DNA from: a virus
Strand: one strand, 5' to 3'
Virus record (IMG/VR): IMGVR_UViG_3300009027_001117
Coordinates: 1-34,436 of that record
Length of the DNA stretch: 34,436 bases
This document shows positions 7,188-14,017 of this stretch, piece after piece; position 1 is the stretch's first letter, and each line of letters starts with the position of its first letter. The translations under genes were made by a program, and so were the position numbers. A model generated the notes under the pieces. It ran no database searches and was not told where the DNA came from. It worked only from the letters and a program-made list of their open reading frames with translations.

Positions 7188-7691
7188 ATGAAACTGTCAG
7201 GGATACTTTTAATTGTTATTATGACGATGGGCGGCATAGGATACTGGTACTATACTGATACACAGCGGACTATTGCTGTTCTAACTGAAAACAATGCAAA
7301 ACTTGAACTGGCAGTTGCAACCAACGAAGAAACAATCAAAACAATGGCGGCGGATTTTGCTGCCGCCAATAATGAATTAAAAAGAGTTAACGAAGAGTTT
7401 AATGCTATTCGTCAACAAAACAACAGACTAGCAAGCAAACTTGCTGATTTTGATCTGGCATTACTAGCAGCAAACAAGCCAGCTTCAATCGAACGTGCTG
7501 TAAATAGAGGTACTGCAAACGCAGCTAGATGTTTTGAATTACTAGCAGGTGCTGCACTAACAGAGGAAGAGAAAAATGCAAAGAATGGCGAGTCTTTTAA
7601 CAAAGAGTGCCCTTGGCTTTATGATAATTATAAGTCTAGCGGCATGCTCAACGACACCACGAGCAATAACAGTAACCAGCAAACCAATTGA
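7188..7691 (+). CDS. Rz: Inner-membrane spanin (Rz-like)
   Basis: 167-residue protein with an N-terminal membrane anchor (residues about 4-22, SGILLIVIMTMGGIGYWYY) followed by a long periplasmic helix with coiled-coil heptads (NNAKLELAVATNEETIK through QQNNRLASKLADFDLALL). C115 and C141 could form disulfides. Its position directly after the endolysin, and the lipoprotein gene that starts inside it in another frame, are the classic Rz/Rz1 arrangement: the two proteins span the periplasm and disrupt the outer membrane. This implies a Gram-negative host. Family assignment rests on architecture, since spanins hardly conserve sequence. Confidence 0.8.
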   Translation: MKLSGILLIVIMTMGGIGYWYYTDTQRTIAVLTENNAKLELAVATNEETIKTMAADFAAANNELKRVNEEFNAIRQQNNRLASKLADFDLALLAANKPASIERAVNRGTANAARCFELLAGAALTEEEKNAKNGESFNKECPWLYDNYKSSGMLNDTTSNNSNQQTN

Positions 7692-8046
7692 TAAACCTGA
7701 GTTAGTGTTACCTGGTGTTGACCCTGTCAACATGCGCCGTGTTGAATGGGTTGTTATCAACCAAGAAAACATGGAAGAAAAGATTGCTGAACTTACAGCA
7801 GGTGGCGCTCCTCTAGCTATGTTTGTACTAACAGCACAGGGTTACGAAAACCTAGGTTTAAACTTCTCTGACATCCGTGCAATGGTACAGCAACAACAAC
7901 AAATTATTCTTGCATACGAAAACTACTACAAAGAAGCAAACAAAGCTCTTGACGATGCAGAAGCTCAACGTCAAGCAGAAGAAGCAGAAGATGCTGCACG
8001 AGAAGCAAAACTCAATAAAGGTATAGACCTAAATCCATTTGATTAA
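7576..8046 (+). CDS. Rz1: Outer-membrane lipoprotein spanin (Rz1-like)
   Basis: 156-residue lipoprotein. The N-terminus is a signal peptide (basic residues, then ALGFMIIISL) ending in the lipobox L21-A-A-C24, so C24 would be acylated and S25 at +2 favours outer-membrane sorting. The rest contains a helical segment (MVQQQQQIILAYENYYKEA) and a highly charged C-terminal helix. The gene begins 116 bases before the end of the i-spanin gene in a different frame, with GAGGAAGAG as Shine-Dalgarno at 7563-7571. It is longer than lambda Rz1 (60 aa), so it may carry a periplasmic helical stalk. Confidence 0.78.
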   Translation: MQRMASLLTKSALGFMIIISLAACSTTPRAITVTSKPIDKPELVLPGVDPVNMRRVEWVVINQENMEEKIAELTAGGAPLAMFVLTAQGYENLGLNFSDIRAMVQQQQQIILAYENYYKEANKALDDAEAQRQAEEAEDAAREAKLNKGIDLNPFD

Positions 8047-8048
8047 AC

Positions 8049-8056
8049 GATAAATA
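8049..8056 (+). promoter_or_regulatory. Candidate late promoter GATAAATA
   Basis: GATAAATA in the 29-base gap after the o-spanin gene, ending 19 bases before the ATG at 8076. It is identical to the element before 5092. A T4-type late promoter function is inferred. Confidence 0.5.
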
Positions 8057-8075
8057 CATTAGCGGAGGGTAGCTA

Positions 8076-8438
8076 ATGGAAATGATAAGCCGCATGTTTG
8101 GTGACACGCTGTGGATATACACAGCAATAGCTGGATCGCTGTTGGGCGCAGCATTTTTAGCGTGGTTTAGAAATACACACGCAGCATTATACTTAATGTC
8201 TAAATTTGATGCACTACTAGATAGTCTAGTAGATCGTTTTGGTTGGGACTTCCTTCAAGACGATCCAAATGCTTGGCGTAAAAGATATCCAAAAGTTACT
8301 AAAAAAATAGATGAGTTAGAAGAACGCATTCGTCAATTAGAAACTGACAGTCATCCTCCAAAAGAATTATACGAATTTGAAGTTTGGCCTGAGCTAGATG
8401 CTAGGCTAAAAGCATTGGAGAAGAAGCGTGGAAAATGA
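8076..8438 (+). CDS. Membrane-anchored coiled-coil protein, holin candidate
   Basis: 120-residue protein with one hydrophobic span near the N-terminus (about residues 10-29, LWIYTAIAGSLLGAAFLAW) and a helical, charged C-terminal domain with a leucine heptad run (KKIDELEERIRQLETD). Single-span phage holins such as T4 T share this layout, and the gene lies directly after the endolysin and spanins. A strong GGAGGG Shine-Dalgarno and its own late promoter precede it. It could equally be an unrelated small membrane protein. Confidence 0.65.
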   Translation: MEMISRMFGDTLWIYTAIAGSLLGAAFLAWFRNTHAALYLMSKFDALLDSLVDRFGWDFLQDDPNAWRKRYPKVTKKIDELEERIRQLETDSHPPKELYEFEVWPELDARLKALEKKRGK

Positions 8439-8844
8439 AATAATGGGTGCAGGGGGCGTAGGGCTCGAAATAGCAGAACTAGCAATGCCATTTATCGGAG
8501 CATTAGTTGCATTAGTTGTAACACTAATGTTCAAAGACTATGCAACAAAAATTGCAAAGGGTATGGCATTTAAAATGAACCCTGCTTTTAAAGAAGGTGA
8601 CAAAGTTATACTAGACGGTGAAAGAGCTCTTATTGTAAAAATAGGAAATACTGAAACAGTATTTGGTATACACAAAGCTAGTGGAGAATTTAAAGGCGAT
8701 TATATTTGGCGATATGTACCAAATGAAAGAATACCTGCACTAAAGATTGAAAAGATAATTTTTGATGCGACTCCAGAAGTAAATGAGAGACGTATTAATG
8801 AAAATGGGCATAAGATCGACGAACTTATTAAGGAGGGAAAATAA
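8428..8844 (+). CDS. Membrane protein with MscS-like beta-domain signature
   Basis: 138 residues. One hydrophobic span (about residues 10-34, LEIAELAMPFIGALVALVVTLMF) is followed by an amphipathic helix and then KEGDKVILDGERALIVKIGNTETVF (in two parts: GDxVxLDG turn and VxxIGxxxT). This resembles the entry to the beta-domain of small mechanosensitive (MscS) channels, which follows directly on their pore helix. The MscS sensor helices are absent, so this would be a minimal pore module. I chose GTG 8428, overlapping the previous gene by 11 bases with GGAG upstream; ATG 8443 is the alternative. Placement among lysis genes makes a pinholin or channel role possible. Confidence 0.6.
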   Translation: MENEIMGAGGVGLEIAELAMPFIGALVALVVTLMFKDYATKIAKGMAFKMNPAFKEGDKVILDGERALIVKIGNTETVFGIHKASGEFKGDYIWRYVPNERIPALKIEKIIFDATPEVNERRINENGHKIDELIKEGK

Positions 8845-9266
8845 TGCCACGTAGAAAACCAGAAGAACTAGAAAGCGCAGTACCAGCAGCTGATCCAGCA
8901 CCAGCACCAGCACCAGCGCCTGAAGTATCATACGAAAGAATGACAATTGATAGAGGTGCAGTTCCTGAAAGTGCTGATATGAATGGTGACGGACATATTA
9001 CTAAGCAAGAAATGGAAATGCATTTAGAATTCAAACGTAAAGAGCTAGAAGACCAAGATGCTATGCGTGATGCACAGCGTTCAATGGCTTGGTTTGCTCT
9101 ATTTGGTATGTTACTGTATCCATTTGCAGTTGTAGCAGCTAGTTATTTCAACCTAGATAATTCAGCAACTGTCCTTGGATCAATGGCAGCAACATACTTT
9201 GTTTCAGTTGCAGCAATTGTGATGGCATTTTTTGGTGCTAACGCTTACTCTGCTAAAGGCAAATAA
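8844..9266 (+). CDS. Two-span membrane protein with an EF-hand, holin candidate
   Basis: 140 residues in three parts. Residues 1-30 are a charged start plus an Ala-Pro run. Residues 45-56 are a perfect EF-hand loop (DMNGDGHITKQE: Asp1, Asn3, Asp5, Gly6, Ile8, Glu12), so Ca2+ binding is expected. Residues 81-101 and 108-132 are two membrane spans with a short polar turn. Two-span class II holins have this hairpin. A single EF-hand usually needs a partner, so the protein may oligomerise. The ATG overlaps the previous stop by one base and follows an AAGGAGGGAAA Shine-Dalgarno. Whether the EF-hand faces the cytoplasm or periplasm cannot be told. Confidence 0.7.
   Translation: MPRRKPEELESAVPAADPAPAPAPAPEVSYERMTIDRGAVPESADMNGDGHITKQEMEMHLEFKRKELEDQDAMRDAQRSMAWFALFGMLLYPFAVVAASYFNLDNSATVLGSMAATYFVSVAAIVMAFFGANAYSAKGK
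8895..8918 (+). repeat. CCAGCA hexamer repeat, four units
   Basis: Three perfect CCAGCA units followed by CCAGCG code for the Pro-Ala run of the EF-hand membrane protein. Short in-frame repeats like this can gain or lose units by slippage without breaking the frame. Confidence 0.8.
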
Positions 9267-9282
9267 TCACTACTGTTAATAT

Positions 9283-9321
9283 GTAATAGTCCATGCGATA
9301 AGTAGTAGTATGGACTATTAC
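9283..9321 (+). promoter_or_regulatory. Hairpin enclosing the dnaJ start codon
   Basis: GTAATAGTCCAT (9283-9294) and ATGGACTATTAC (9310-9321) are perfect 12-base inverted complements. A further G-U and C-G pair (9295/9309, 9296/9308) extend the stem to 14 bp with an 11-base loop. The second arm is the first four codons of dnaJ, so the ATG is fully paired. No U-tract follows, so it is not an intrinsic terminator. No Shine-Dalgarno is seen in the loop. ACTACT at 9269-9274 could pair with AGTAGT in the loop and compete. Translational control of dnaJ is the simplest reading. Confidence 0.6.
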
Positions 9322-10155
9322 TCTATTCTAGGTGTTTCTAAAAATGCTTCTGAAAAAGAAATAAGATCTGCGTACAAAAAGAAAAGTATGCAACACCATC
9401 CTGACCGCGGTGGCAACGAAGAAGAATTTAAACGAGTAAACGAAGCATATAGCACACTAAAAGATCCTCAAAAAAGAGGAATATACGATCATTCACAAAC
9501 TGCTGGCGCCGGCGGGTTTCATTTTAATAGTAATAATTTTTCTAATGGGCAAAATCCTTTTTCTGGAACACCTTTTGATCATATATTTGGACAAGGATTT
9601 GCTCAACAACATAGCAGAACACCGAGAAATAGAGATATACATGTTAGAGCCGAAATGGATTTAGCAGATGTATTAACTGGTAAAAATGTTGTAATACAGT
9701 ATAGAACACAAAGAGGTAGAATAGAAACTGTCACTGTTGACATTCCACCTGGTGCCAAACATGGCGACACAGTGAGATATACAGAACTAGGAGACGATGG
9801 ATACGGCCAATATCCTAGAGGTGATTTACACGTTAAGTTATATGTAAAAAAACTTAAAGATTGGGAGCGAGATGGCAATAATTTAATTACCAAAAAATAC
9901 ATAAATGTATTTGACTTATTGTTAGGATGTGTTACAATAGTTACTACGTTAGACAAAAAAAATGTAAAACTTACAATTCCACAAGGCACAAAAATAGGTC
10001 AAACATTCAATATTCCAGGATATGGAATACCAGATTTACACACAGGCAAAAAAGGAAATTTGTATGTAACAATTGATGCAAATATGCCAATAATAAAAGA
10101 CGAATCTATACTACAACAGATTCGAGACATAAAGAATAAAACAAAAGGTGAATAA
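9310..10155 (+). CDS. dnaJ: DnaJ-family co-chaperone (type II, no zinc finger)
   Basis: 281 residues. Residues 1-63 are a J domain with the HPD tripeptide at 30-32 (helix II/III loop), which stimulates the ATPase of host DnaK. Then comes a Gly/Phe-rich linker (about 65-105, GAGGFHFNSNNFSNGQNPF) and the C-terminal substrate-binding domains (VRAEMDLADVLTGKN, VDIPPGAKHGDTVRY, GDLHVKLYVKKL). The four CxxCxGxG zinc motifs of type I DnaJ are absent, so it resembles CbpA. No DnaK is encoded in this window, so it would redirect the host chaperone. It overlaps clpA by one base, which implies a joint chaperone and unfoldase unit. Confidence 0.93.
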   Translation: MDYYSILGVSKNASEKEIRSAYKKKSMQHHPDRGGNEEEFKRVNEAYSTLKDPQKRGIYDHSQTAGAGGFHFNSNNFSNGQNPFSGTPFDHIFGQGFAQQHSRTPRNRDIHVRAEMDLADVLTGKNVVIQYRTQRGRIETVTVDIPPGAKHGDTVRYTELGDDGYGQYPRGDLHVKLYVKKLKDWERDGNNLITKKYINVFDLLLGCVTIVTTLDKKNVKLTIPQGTKIGQTFNIPGYGIPDLHTGKKGNLYVTIDANMPIIKDESILQQIRDIKNKTKGE

Positions 10156-12404
10156 TGGTTGAACCAAGCAAAGAATTACAAATAGTTTTTGATAAAGCTA
10201 TTAGAGATGCAAAAAATTTAAGACACGAATATGTAACACTAGAGCATTTAGTGTATGCAATTCTTTGTGAAGAAAAATTTTCTAATCTACTTACTGCATA
10301 TGGTGCTAATATTGAGTATATTAAATCTAATATTGAACAGTATTTGCGCAACGATCTAGAAAACATAAAAATTGATACAAAAAAATTCAAACCAAAAAAA
10401 ACAAGCACTGTAGAAAGAGTATTGAATAGAGCTTTTACACAGACTCTTTTCGCTGGTAGAACCACAATAGAATTAACTGATCTAATTTTAAGTGTTTTGC
10501 ACGAGAAAAAAAGTATTTCGGTGTATTACTTAGAAAAAGGCGGCGTAGATAAGTCTTCTTTTGGAGAATTTTTAGACGACGAACAACTAATTGGTGCTGA
10601 AGAAGATGACGAATTATCTTCAGAAGCAAAACGTGCATTACGTGCATTTACTTCTAATCTTAATGATCAAGTTAAAAAAGGAAAAGTAGATCCAATTATT
10701 GGACGCTCAGATGAACTAGAAAGTCTTGCACTTGCTCTTGGACGCCGTAATAAAAATAATGTACTAATGGTAGGAGACCCTGGCGTAGGTAAAACTGCTA
10801 TTGCAGAAGGTCTTGCTTACAAAATTGTAAACAACGAAGTTCCTGAGTTCTTAAAGGAATATAAAGTATATAATCTAGATATTGGTAGTATGCTTGCTGG
10901 TTCAAAATATCGTGGTGATTTTGAAGAACGGTTTAAACTTGTTATACATGCACTAACTAAACAAGGCAAAACTATTATGTTTGTCGACGAAGCACACATG
11001 ATGATGGGTGCAGGTGCCGCTGGATCGAGTAATGCAAATGATATGGCAAACATGCTTAAACCTGCACTAACTAAAGGTGATTTAAAAGTAGTTGCGAGCA
11101 CAACTTGGGAAGAATATCGCAAGTACTTTGAAAAGGATCGTGCGCTAATGCGTCGATTCCAGCGTGTAGTAATTGACGAACCGACAACAGAAAGTACAAA
11201 AGATATTTTACGTGGTTTGAAAAAATATTACGAAGATTATCACGGTACAGAAATTACAGATGATGCAATTGATGCTGCTGTTAAATTAAGTGTAAAATAT
11301 CAAACTGATAAAAAATTACCTGATAAAGCAATTGATCTAATTGATGTAGCATGTAGTAGATTTAAAGTTAATAATCAAAGTGAAAATATTATAGTAGGCG
11401 AAGCTGAAATACAATTTGAACTTGCAAAAATGTTAAAATTGCCAGCGGAACAAGTTGCTGAAAAAGAAACAGAAAACCTTGCTAATCTAGAAAACAATCT
11501 TAAAAAGGTTGTGTTTGGCCAAGATGACGCAATTGAATCAATTGTTGATAAAATACTTGTTAGTCAAGCAGGACTTAAACCAGATGATAAGCCTATTGGT
11601 GCGTTTGTGTTTATGGGCCCAACGGGCACAGGTAAAACTGAAACTGCTAAGGCACTTGCTAAAAATCTTGGGGTACAACTTGTACGTTTTGATATGTCAG
11701 AATACATGGAAAAACATTCTGTTGCTAAATTAATTGGTTCACCTCCAGGTTATGTAGGACACGAAGAAAACGGTGGACTATTAATTACCAAATTACAAGA
11801 ACATCCTAATTGTGTACTATTGTTAGACGAAATAGAAAAAGCACACCCCGACGTTTCGCAAATTCTATTACAACTTATGGATAATGGTAAAGTTACAGGT
11901 TCGCAAGGCAAAGAAGCAGATGCTCGTAACTGTACTCTTATTCTTACAACTAACCTAGGTGCTGCCCAAGCAGAGAAAAACTCAATTGGGTTTGACAGCG
12001 AAGAAAGTTACGATTATGAAGATACAGAACTAAAGCGTTTCTTCGCTCCAGAATTCCGCAACAGACTTGACGGTGTAATTACATTTGCTAAACTAAGCAA
12101 AGAAGTAATGATGAAAATTGTTGGTAAGTTCCTGCTTGAACTTAAGAACATGGTTGTTGATAAAAACATTTCTATTAAGATTACAGATGATGCACTTGAT
12201 TATCTAGTAGACAAAGGATTTGATCCTAAAAATGGTGCCCGTCCATTACAACGTGTAATTGACAAAGATATTAAACGTCCTTTATCACGCCAAATCTTGT
12301 TTGGTGATCTAAAGAACGGTGGCACAGTTACAGTTGATTTAAAGGATAATTCAATTGTTCTACACACTGCGGAAAAAGAAGAACTTTTAAATGGACATAC
12401 TTGA
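10155..12404 (+). CDS. clpA: ClpA-type AAA+ unfoldase
   Basis: 749 residues, close to bacterial ClpA (758 in E. coli). Residues 1-140 are a Clp N-domain (HEYVTLEHLVYAIL), the part that binds adaptors such as ClpS in ClpA. AAA-1 has Walker A GDPGVGKT (207-214), Walker B IMFVDEAH and arginine finger region. There is no long middle coiled coil, so it is ClpA and not ClpB. AAA-2 has Walker A GPTGTGKT (488-495), IGSPPGYVG pore loop and VLLLDEIEKAH. NSIGFDSE places an I-G-F tripeptide at about 611-613, the loop that docks on ClpP. No ClpP or ClpS is encoded here, so it probably works with host ClpP. The last 14 bases overlap the next gene. Confidence 0.95.
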   Translation: MVEPSKELQIVFDKAIRDAKNLRHEYVTLEHLVYAILCEEKFSNLLTAYGANIEYIKSNIEQYLRNDLENIKIDTKKFKPKKTSTVERVLNRAFTQTLFAGRTTIELTDLILSVLHEKKSISVYYLEKGGVDKSSFGEFLDDEQLIGAEEDDELSSEAKRALRAFTSNLNDQVKKGKVDPIIGRSDELESLALALGRRNKNNVLMVGDPGVGKTAIAEGLAYKIVNNEVPEFLKEYKVYNLDIGSMLAGSKYRGDFEERFKLVIHALTKQGKTIMFVDEAHMMMGAGAAGSSNANDMANMLKPALTKGDLKVVASTTWEEYRKYFEKDRALMRRFQRVVIDEPTTESTKDILRGLKKYYEDYHGTEITDDAIDAAVKLSVKYQTDKKLPDKAIDLIDVACSRFKVNNQSENIIVGEAEIQFELAKMLKLPAEQVAEKETENLANLENNLKKVVFGQDDAIESIVDKILVSQAGLKPDDKPIGAFVFMGPTGTGKTETAKALAKNLGVQLVRFDMSEYMEKHSVAKLIGSPPGYVGHEENGGLLITKLQEHPNCVLLLDEIEKAHPDVSQILLQLMDNGKVTGSQGKEADARNCTLILTTNLGAAQAEKNSIGFDSEESYDYEDTELKRFFAPEFRNRLDGVITFAKLSKEVMMKIVGKFLLELKNMVVDKNISIKITDDALDYLVDKGFDPKNGARPLQRVIDKDIKRPLSRQILFGDLKNGGTVTVDLKDNSIVLHTAEKEELLNGHT

Positions 12405-13107
12405 AACAAAAAAGTTATTTTATAACAAGTATGCCTATAAAATTGTAATCTATAATCGTTTAGCAAGCATATTTAGATCTGAGTTGCAACGTGGAAACAA
12501 ACTATCCTTTGCAAGAGCAGAATTGGATCGTATGCATGCAGAATACGAAAATGGGTTTCCAATAACAAAGCGTGTTTTTAGATCGGATACAATAATACCT
12601 ACTGAAGATTTTTTTGATGCGCAAGATGTTTATAAAATCTTAAAAAAAACTTCTAACGAGTATATGATTAGAATTGGTATTGGGAATGATCTAATCATAT
12701 ACTCTCATAGTAAAGAATTTTTATTATCTATAAGTAAAAAAGTGAGATCTACTAATATTAAGTTTTATGAACCACATGTTGATATTAAGGACTTTTTAGA
12801 GAAAAATAAAGATGTTGTTATAGTTAAAAATCAACCAAAATTTCCTATAAAAGTTATACTTGGTAGGAAAAAATCTGGTTCAATAGATTTAGCTAATTGG
12901 TTAAAATTAAATCATGATAAAAGCAAGGTCGGAAATAAAACCTTGTCTTATTTAGAAGAAAGTTCATATGTTGACGGTTTATACTTTTATGTGCGCGACG
13001 AAAAAGTATTACAGTTAGTTTATCTTATGTGTGGCGATAATATTAGAAAAATTGAAAAACTAGTTTGGCAACACGAAATAGATAAATATAAGTATGGCAG
13101 CGAATAG
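12391..13107 (+). CDS. Hypothetical protein, 238 aa
   Basis: Unrecognised lysine-rich protein starting inside the end of clpA. The N-terminal part is helical and basic (YKIVIYNRLASIFRSELQRG), followed by mixed alpha/beta segments (MIRIGIGNDLIIYSHSKEF, KDVVIVKNQPKFPIKVILG) and a C-terminal helix with a single Cys. No membrane span or catalytic motif is visible. Its codon use is AT-rich like its neighbours. Overlap with both flanking genes (14 bases each) supports it being a real part of the operon. Confidence 0.75.
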   Translation: MDILETKKLFYNKYAYKIVIYNRLASIFRSELQRGNKLSFARAELDRMHAEYENGFPITKRVFRSDTIIPTEDFFDAQDVYKILKKTSNEYMIRIGIGNDLIIYSHSKEFLLSISKKVRSTNIKFYEPHVDIKDFLEKNKDVVIVKNQPKFPIKVILGRKKSGSIDLANWLKLNHDKSKVGNKTLSYLEESSYVDGLYFYVRDEKVLQLVYLMCGDNIRKIEKLVWQHEIDKYKYGSE

Positions 13108-13438
13108 TGAAATAATTTTATCAGCACAAACACACCCTGGAGACAGCACGACAGAGGCTGTAACAGGTGACAAATTCAAAGGTGACGGTTACTACGGTCG
13201 TAGTGACGGTCTTCATACCGTTCAATATACATATACAGAATTAACTGGAACAATTGTTATTGAAGCAACTCTAGCAATTGAGCCGGGAGATAGTGACTGG
13301 TTTTATGTTCATTCCTATGTTGCAGCGCAAGAGACTTCAAGTAAAATCCAAAGTATTACAGGCAATTACGTTTGGATTAGAGCAAAATTATACAACTGGA
13401 CCGACGGTACAATCAATTCAATAGTATTAAATCATTAA
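13094..13438 (+). CDS. Probable virion protein, all-beta, 114 aa
   Basis: 114 residues, rich in Thr, Ser, Tyr and Gly with repeated strand-turn patterns (VQYTYTELTGTIVIEATLA, WFYVHSYVAAQ, ITGNYVWIRAKLYNWTDGT). It has no Cys, signal or charge-rich helix. This looks like a jelly-roll or beta-sandwich capsid-decoration or tail protein; assignment rests on composition and position in the late region. It starts within the last codons of the preceding gene. A GATAAATA at 13081-13088 lies upstream but too close to be a convincing promoter. Confidence 0.65.
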   Translation: MAANSEIILSAQTHPGDSTTEAVTGDKFKGDGYYGRSDGLHTVQYTYTELTGTIVIEATLAIEPGDSDWFYVHSYVAAQETSSKIQSITGNYVWIRAKLYNWTDGTINSIVLNH

Positions 13439-13447
13439 GGTAAAGAT

Positions 13448-14017
13448 ATGGAACACTTTGTAAGAATAGTAATGGAAAAACAAGAAGGTGCACAATTATT
13501 AGATGAAAGCATCTTTGTAGAACAAGAAATTTACGAAACTGAGCAAGGTGCTACAGTATACGAAATTGCACTTCCTCGCCAACTAGATGAAGAAGAAGCA
13601 GACGAGTATGCTAATCGTTTAGCAAACTATATGTTTGAACAAGGCTACGAAGACTTTGATATTGAAATCTCAAACGAGATAGGCGAAGATATTACAGAAG
13701 AAACATACGACGGTGATGATTTCTTTTTAGAGTACGGTGTTATGTGGTTCAACGAAGATGACGACGAATTAGATGAAGCAGAATATCAAGGACGTAAAGT
13801 TAAACTAGGCAAGCCAATGCGTGGTGATGTTAAGAAGTTTAAAGTGTACGTCCGTGACCCAAAGACTAAGAATGTTAAAAAAGTTAACTTTGGCGATCCT
13901 AACATGAAGATTAAAAAGTCTAACCCAGCACGTAGACGTTCATTCCGTGCAAGACACAACTGTGATAATCCAGGTCCACGTACAAAAGCACGTTACTGGT
14001 CATGTAGGAAGTGGTAA
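13448..14017 (+). CDS. Probable prohead/virion protein with acidic N-half and basic Cys-tagged C-half
   Basis: 189 residues with sharply split charge. Residues 1-110 are strongly acidic (LDEEEADEY, FNEDDDELDE). Residues 111-189 are basic, ending in RRRSFRARHNCDNPGPRTK and ARYWSCRKW, with two cysteines (C172, C186) in a short aromatic and Arg-rich tag. The junction reads L-D-E|A (108-111), which fits the T4 gp21 prohead-protease rule (I/L)-x-E|(A/G/S). A processed protein with an acidic propeptide and a DNA-binding mature part is therefore possible. Similar basic Cys tags occur in the 739-residue protein downstream. RBS AAGGTAAAG precedes the ATG. Confidence 0.7.
   Translation: MEHFVRIVMEKQEGAQLLDESIFVEQEIYETEQGATVYEIALPRQLDEEEADEYANRLANYMFEQGYEDFDIEISNEIGEDITEETYDGDDFFLEYGVMWFNEDDDELDEAEYQGRKVKLGKPMRGDVKKFKVYVRDPKTKNVKKVNFGDPNMKIKKSNPARRRSFRARHNCDNPGPRTKARYWSCRKW

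Follow-up and report, generated by a model that had tools for sequence, protein, structure and literature searches.

Genomic context of the dnaJ gene

The window, by which we mean the whole stretch of DNA analysed (34,436 nt), is a jumbo-phage (marine giant phage) fragment from IMG/VR record IMGVR_UViG_3300009027_001117. Its DNA polymerase is closest to those of Sinorhizobium phage Phosso (50% identity) and Agrobacterium phage Atu_ph07 (47%). A dnaJ gene on the plus strand (9310-10155) encodes a protein of 281 aa with a DnaJ domain (Pfam PF00226, 7e-23) and a DnaJ C-terminal domain (PF01556, 1.6e-33). The gene sits between a lysis cassette, comprising an endolysin, nested Rz/Rz1-like spanins, and small probable membrane proteins, and a gene for a ClpA/B-type AAA+ ATPase. 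Within the cassette, the endolysin, which carries a peptidoglycan-binding domain, precedes the nested inner and outer spanin genes (7188-8046, plus strand; Rz-like phrog_739 and phrog_812).

The gene directly upstream of dnaJ encodes a small probable membrane protein (8844-9266, plus strand), and its stop codon (9264-9266) lies 16 nt before the hairpin described below. On the other side, the start of the ATPase gene (10155-12404, plus strand) overlaps the dnaJ stop and has its own Shine-Dalgarno (SD)-like AAAGGTG; this gene is probably on the same transcript as dnaJ. An ATAAATA late-promoter-like site (8050-8056, plus strand) upstream of the gene at 8076 is a possible source of read-through RNA into dnaJ.

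A stable hairpin covers the dnaJ start codon

The element at the dnaJ start spans 39 nt (9283-9321) and folded in silico at -19.2 kcal/mol, with a z-score of -6.9. The segments GTAATAGTCCAT (9283-9294) and ATGGACTATTAC (9310-9321, codons M-D-Y-Y) form 12 contiguous Watson-Crick pairs without a mismatch, and the pairs G9295·T9309 and C9296-G9308 lengthen the stem to 14. The complete 5' arm is GTAATAGTCCATGC (9283-9296, plus strand), and the 3' arm, GTATGGACTATTAC (9308-9321, plus strand), consists of the last 2 nt before the ATG and dnaJ codons 1-4. The loop measures 11 nt (9297-9307).

A sequence-only reading of this DNA had described a 12-14 bp hairpin that joins codons 1-4 to the segment just upstream, with neither a U-tract nor an SD in the loop, and our analysis bears out this description. 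No U-tract follows the hairpin, and no SD was found between 9297 and 9309. The occluded start codon proposed in the same reading was also recovered: the probability that the AUG is unpaired was about 0.0015 in read-through RNA versus 0.57 in RNA starting at the predicted +1 (means of the 40 group-1 sequences defined below). Sequestration of the start by a stable RNA helix in read-through RNA is thus indicated by both thermodynamics and conservation.

Perfect inverted repeats of at least 12 bp with a loop of at most 20 nt occurred twice in the window and not once in 12 dinucleotide shuffles. A 15-bp perfect inverted repeat, GAGTATATGATTAGA / TCTAATCATATACTC, lies at 12658-12704 (plus strand) within the ORF 12391-13107, with a z-score of -3.4 as RNA. 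An Rfam search over 8000-13500 returned nothing relevant and no match to a thermometer family. An intrinsic terminator at the dnaJ hairpin was rejected, as the hairpin has no U-tract and is absent from the terminator-like sites.

The sequence ACTACT is indeed present at 9269-9274. The switch in which it would pair with AGTAGT in the loop did not hold up, for the real combination reached -2.92 kcal/mol versus -2.91 kcal/mol when the loops were swapped between relatives. Directly after the upstream stop, the motif TAATCA-N-TACT(AAC/GTTAA) (9264-9279) recurs in most group-1 junctions; no covariation between this motif and the loop was seen in group 1.

The pairing is conserved in part of the relatives

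A protein search of viral contigs yielded 23 relatives with 15 distinct dnaJ junctions. A pattern scan for TAARTA-N5-ATGGAYTAYTAY, which placed no constraint on the 5' arm or on third codon positions, brought the total to 85 distinct junctions. A scan of cellular genomes for the dnaJ junction gave 0 matches, and none of the cultured phages in the collection matched it at the DNA level.

The junctions fell into two groups. Group 1 comprises about 40 distinct junctions with the same hairpin (mean z -5.3), and its DnaJ proteins are strongly diverged. Group 2 comprises 44 distinct junctions with the same promoter-like motif and spacing, but with a weak and variable 8-bp hairpin that often leaves the AUG in the loop (mean z -1.3). 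Because about half of the relatives, those of group 2, have only weak hairpins, strong sequestration is not universal and belongs to part of the clade. Two junctions, L009 and L150, lack this hairpin; in them, other helices (19 bp and 10 bp) join the upstream region to later codons. Among ten related contigs, the 5' arm occurred only at the dnaJ gene of the five that belong to group 1.

Within group 1, 93.9% of cells were paired, versus 23-51% for slid partners. The covariation score was 0.162 versus 0.131±0.008 after shuffling and was reached by 0 of 500 shuffles, although such counts overlap phylogeny and the independent pairs were too few for significance in tree-corrected pair tests. All inferred changes in the arm core (-23 to -16), about 18 on the DnaJ tree, are either A→G with U as the partner or C→U with G as the partner, and the four T/G positions at which a transition would break the pair are invariant in 39 aligned sequences. 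Since only these pair-preserving changes occur, it is the coding-strand RNA that folds and not a DNA palindrome. A palindrome recognized by a binding protein was rejected on the same grounds, as variation restricted to G·U points to single-stranded coding-strand RNA. At the core pair -24/+9, an A-U→G-C double change was found in two junctions (L007 and L081), and the pair is broken in a third (L069).

The coding side of the stem is constrained as well. Codon 2 is GAC in 41/41 group-1 sequences versus 33/44 of the others (p 5e-4), and codon 3 is TAT in 38/41 versus 23/44 (p 3e-5); in group 2 the synonymous sites of the 3' arm vary freely, and in group 1 they are frozen. The sequence-only reading had named the comparison of the arms in relatives as its check, and the outcome, conserved arms with pair-preserving changes, favours the hairpin. 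Judged by this pattern of substitutions, the pairing of the hairpin is selected, and selected as RNA.

In group 2, pairing with TACTAG at codons 6-8 was found in 7/7 junctions of a sub-type that has C at -5, versus 1/37 of the remainder, with tree-corrected pairs too few for significance. Across the dnaJ junctions L063-L181, the DnaJ tree and the type of upstream junction disagree, with at least 7 well supported switches. This interspersion of the groups on the tree suggests frequent recombination between the dnaJ body and the 5' junction, which makes the counts of changes given above approximate.

The hairpin loop resembles a late promoter

The loop contains GATAAGTA (9297-9304, plus strand; core ATAAGTA, 9298-9304), a T4-type late-promoter-like element that is followed by a 5-nt spacer (9305-9309, plus strand) and then the ATG. 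In ten related contigs, ATAAATA was the top enriched upstream 7-mer (64 occurrences versus 0.9 expected), and ATAAGTA was enriched upstream as well (16 versus 0.8). In the dnaJ promoter, G usually stands in place of the consensus A, and ATAAGTA is also found at leader distance before several other genes in several contigs. The arrangement TAARTA-N5-ATG was present in 15/15 distinct junctions from the protein search.

The distances from motif to start codon were bimodal: one class lies at exactly 5 nt and the other at about 17-34 nt, and intermediate values were rare. The 5-nt class is made up mainly of dnaJ and the 13094 gene, along with a small number of other genes, and a TAAATA variant with unchanged spacing occurs in L008 and before the 13094-type gene. 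Matches to a gp55-like late sigma factor were found in three large relatives (G010, G011, and G013), Atu_ph07, and Phosso; none was found in the partial 126-kb contig G001, whose junction is identical to that of the window.

The TATA box of T4 late promoters is numbered -13 to -6. This 8-bp box lies about one helical turn before +1 (PMC2988020). Given the 5-nt spacing, the T4 late geometry predicts a start site at 9310, so the A of the AUG would itself be +1 and the mRNA would be leaderless. Read as DNA, the hairpin loop looks like a gp55-type late promoter with a predicted activity and start site. By its position between the arms, a transcript from GATAAGTA would lack the 5' arm.

The gene at 13094 (13082-13435, plus strand, with its upstream motif; 114 aa, phrog_13657) has GATAAATA ending exactly 5 nt before its ATG, an arrangement seen in at least 6 relatives, and is predicted to give a second leaderless late mRNA. 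No hairpin was found at this gene. When 143 late-promoter sites were tested, the five strongest promoter-flanking helices were those of the five group-1 dnaJ junctions; the proposed hairpin lock is particular to dnaJ. The arm was rejected as a general late-promoter element, as a profile of 76 sites was little conserved upstream of the CG that precedes ATAAATA. On the minus strand of G001:C1, near 102118, a late gene (MSRPKPNILLEK...) has a 10-bp helix joining the region upstream of its ATAAATA promoter to the ATG and is a weaker candidate for the same lock.

Proposed mechanism and alternative explanations

We propose, with a probability of roughly 0.74, that the element is a translation lock of the T4 gene e type, in which dnaJ would be translated only from RNA begun at its own promoter, apparently as a leaderless message. 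The proposal draws on T4 gene e, which has the same anatomy and whose long transcripts are translated ~100-fold less, by a documented hairpin mechanism in early RNA (PMC3014915). At dnaJ, read-through RNA from upstream, for example from ATAAATA at 8050, would hold both arms and form the hairpin 9283-9321, burying the SD-less AUG and presumably leaving dnaJ untranslated. The predicted start of transcription from the loop promoter GATAAGTA is the A of the AUG or a base adjacent to it. Because the 5' arm lies upstream of this promoter, the resulting RNA would be without it, no hairpin would form, and the AUG would be accessible. The predicted dnaJ RNA begins AUGGACUAUUAC and may be translated with no leader or almost none. 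DnaJ, probably together with the ClpA/B-like ATPase, would then be made only when its own promoter fires. The case is assembled from sequence, namely the RNA pairing, its conservation, the promoter-like loop, the fixed spacing, and the late sigma factor in relatives.

The simple T4 logic of early off and late on need not apply here, because the upstream genes carry late promoters too. For the same reason, a role in keeping dnaJ apart from read-through of the lysis cassette is as likely as one in early/late timing.

The sequence-only reading had offered a thermometer or translational coupling and had overlooked the late-promoter-like loop 5 nt before the ATG, which is a better explanation than the thermometer, the switch, or the coupling. 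A chaperone gene with an occluded start would suit an RNA thermometer that opens at high temperature, but the uninterrupted 14-bp stem kept the AUG closed in silico from 4 to 60 °C (open probability at most 0.02 even at 60 °C), and mutations in the relatives preserve the pairing instead of keeping it marginal; we regard this explanation as highly improbable. Coupling, in which ribosomes terminating on the upstream gene would be needed to open the hairpin and with it dnaJ, accords with a stop codon 16 nt before the hairpin and a dnaJ without an SD. In 38/40 group-1 members with a detected upstream ORF, however, the stop ends at least 18 nt before the arm core (7 nt in the other two), and coupling is unlikely because the stop is thus mostly beyond the footprint, roughly taken, of a terminating ribosome. 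Coupling would also not account for a late-promoter motif at a constant 5 nt from the ATG, and the arrangement is different in Atu_ph07 and Phosso, where dnaJ overlaps the gene upstream or follows it directly.

Slightly less probable than coupling is a role in RNA processing or stability. The hairpin would then be a cleavage site, or would shield the 3' end of the lysis-cassette mRNA upstream of it, and the dnaJ start would be freed by processing and not by a promoter. A long perfect stem between two cistrons and the wobble pattern, which shows that the coding-strand RNA folds, would agree with this role; it would not explain why the late-promoter motif is enriched and exactly spaced, the terminator-like U-tract is missing, and the arm extends into coding sequence. 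It is still less probable that the TAAGTA box is a ribosome-binding motif instead of a promoter, with a hairpin that merely down-regulates dnaJ. The fixed distance to the ATG fits such a motif, and weak pairing of UAAG with the 16S tail is conceivable. Against it, members of this word family also stand 17-34 nt before genes with a GGAG-type SD of their own, and the spacing is unchanged where the variant is TAAATA, as in L008 and the 13094-type gene.

On the scale of the clade, we lean slightly towards a broader view. This mostly marine, uncultured jumbo-phage clade may express a few of its genes from leaderless late mRNAs and may have re-evolved the gene e lock in a leaderless form. In that form, loop, promoter, and start codon would coincide, and RNA would be translatable only if it began at the AUG itself. 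If the proposal is true, the gene e strategy is a general way for phages with gp55-type late promoters to deal with transcriptional read-through and not a T-even peculiarity, and it is here tied to leaderless translation. The locus would also be a clear testable case in which promoter, RNA structure, and start codon occupy the same bases. It would further suggest that the phage DnaJ, encoded with its ClpA/B-like partner beside the lysis genes, has to be tightly controlled in timing or amount.

Comparison with known systems

T4 gene e was refolded as a positive control, and TATAAATA formed its hairpin loop. In both genes, a hairpin in read-through RNA buries the start region, the late promoter (a predicted one at dnaJ) forms the loop, and the late RNA is without the 5' arm (PMC3014915 for gene e). 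The two differ in that gene e has its SD in the 3' arm and keeps an SD leader on the late RNA, whereas dnaJ has no SD and its 3' arm includes codons 1-4. A retained SD need not be expected of every case. Moreover, the start site predicted for dnaJ is the AUG itself, and the gene encodes a chaperone behind a lysis cassette, unlike T4 e, which encodes lysozyme.

Sequestered translation starts are listed together with e for T4 soc, gene 49, I-TevI, and Aeh1 mobE, and in I-TevI a 5' arm close to the late promoter governs whether translation is early or late (PMC3014915). These examples concern other genes, hosts, and a different phage family, and none is called leaderless in that source. For jumbo phage CBB, ATAAATA was proposed as a late promoter, and CBB and GAP32 resemble the dnaJ clade in having this word before structural genes and a gp55-like sigma factor; in the parts of that report available to us, a start-codon hairpin was not found (PMC5259590). 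We read the dnaJ lock as the already known gene e design, here in a new gene and a new clade and in an apparently leaderless variant.
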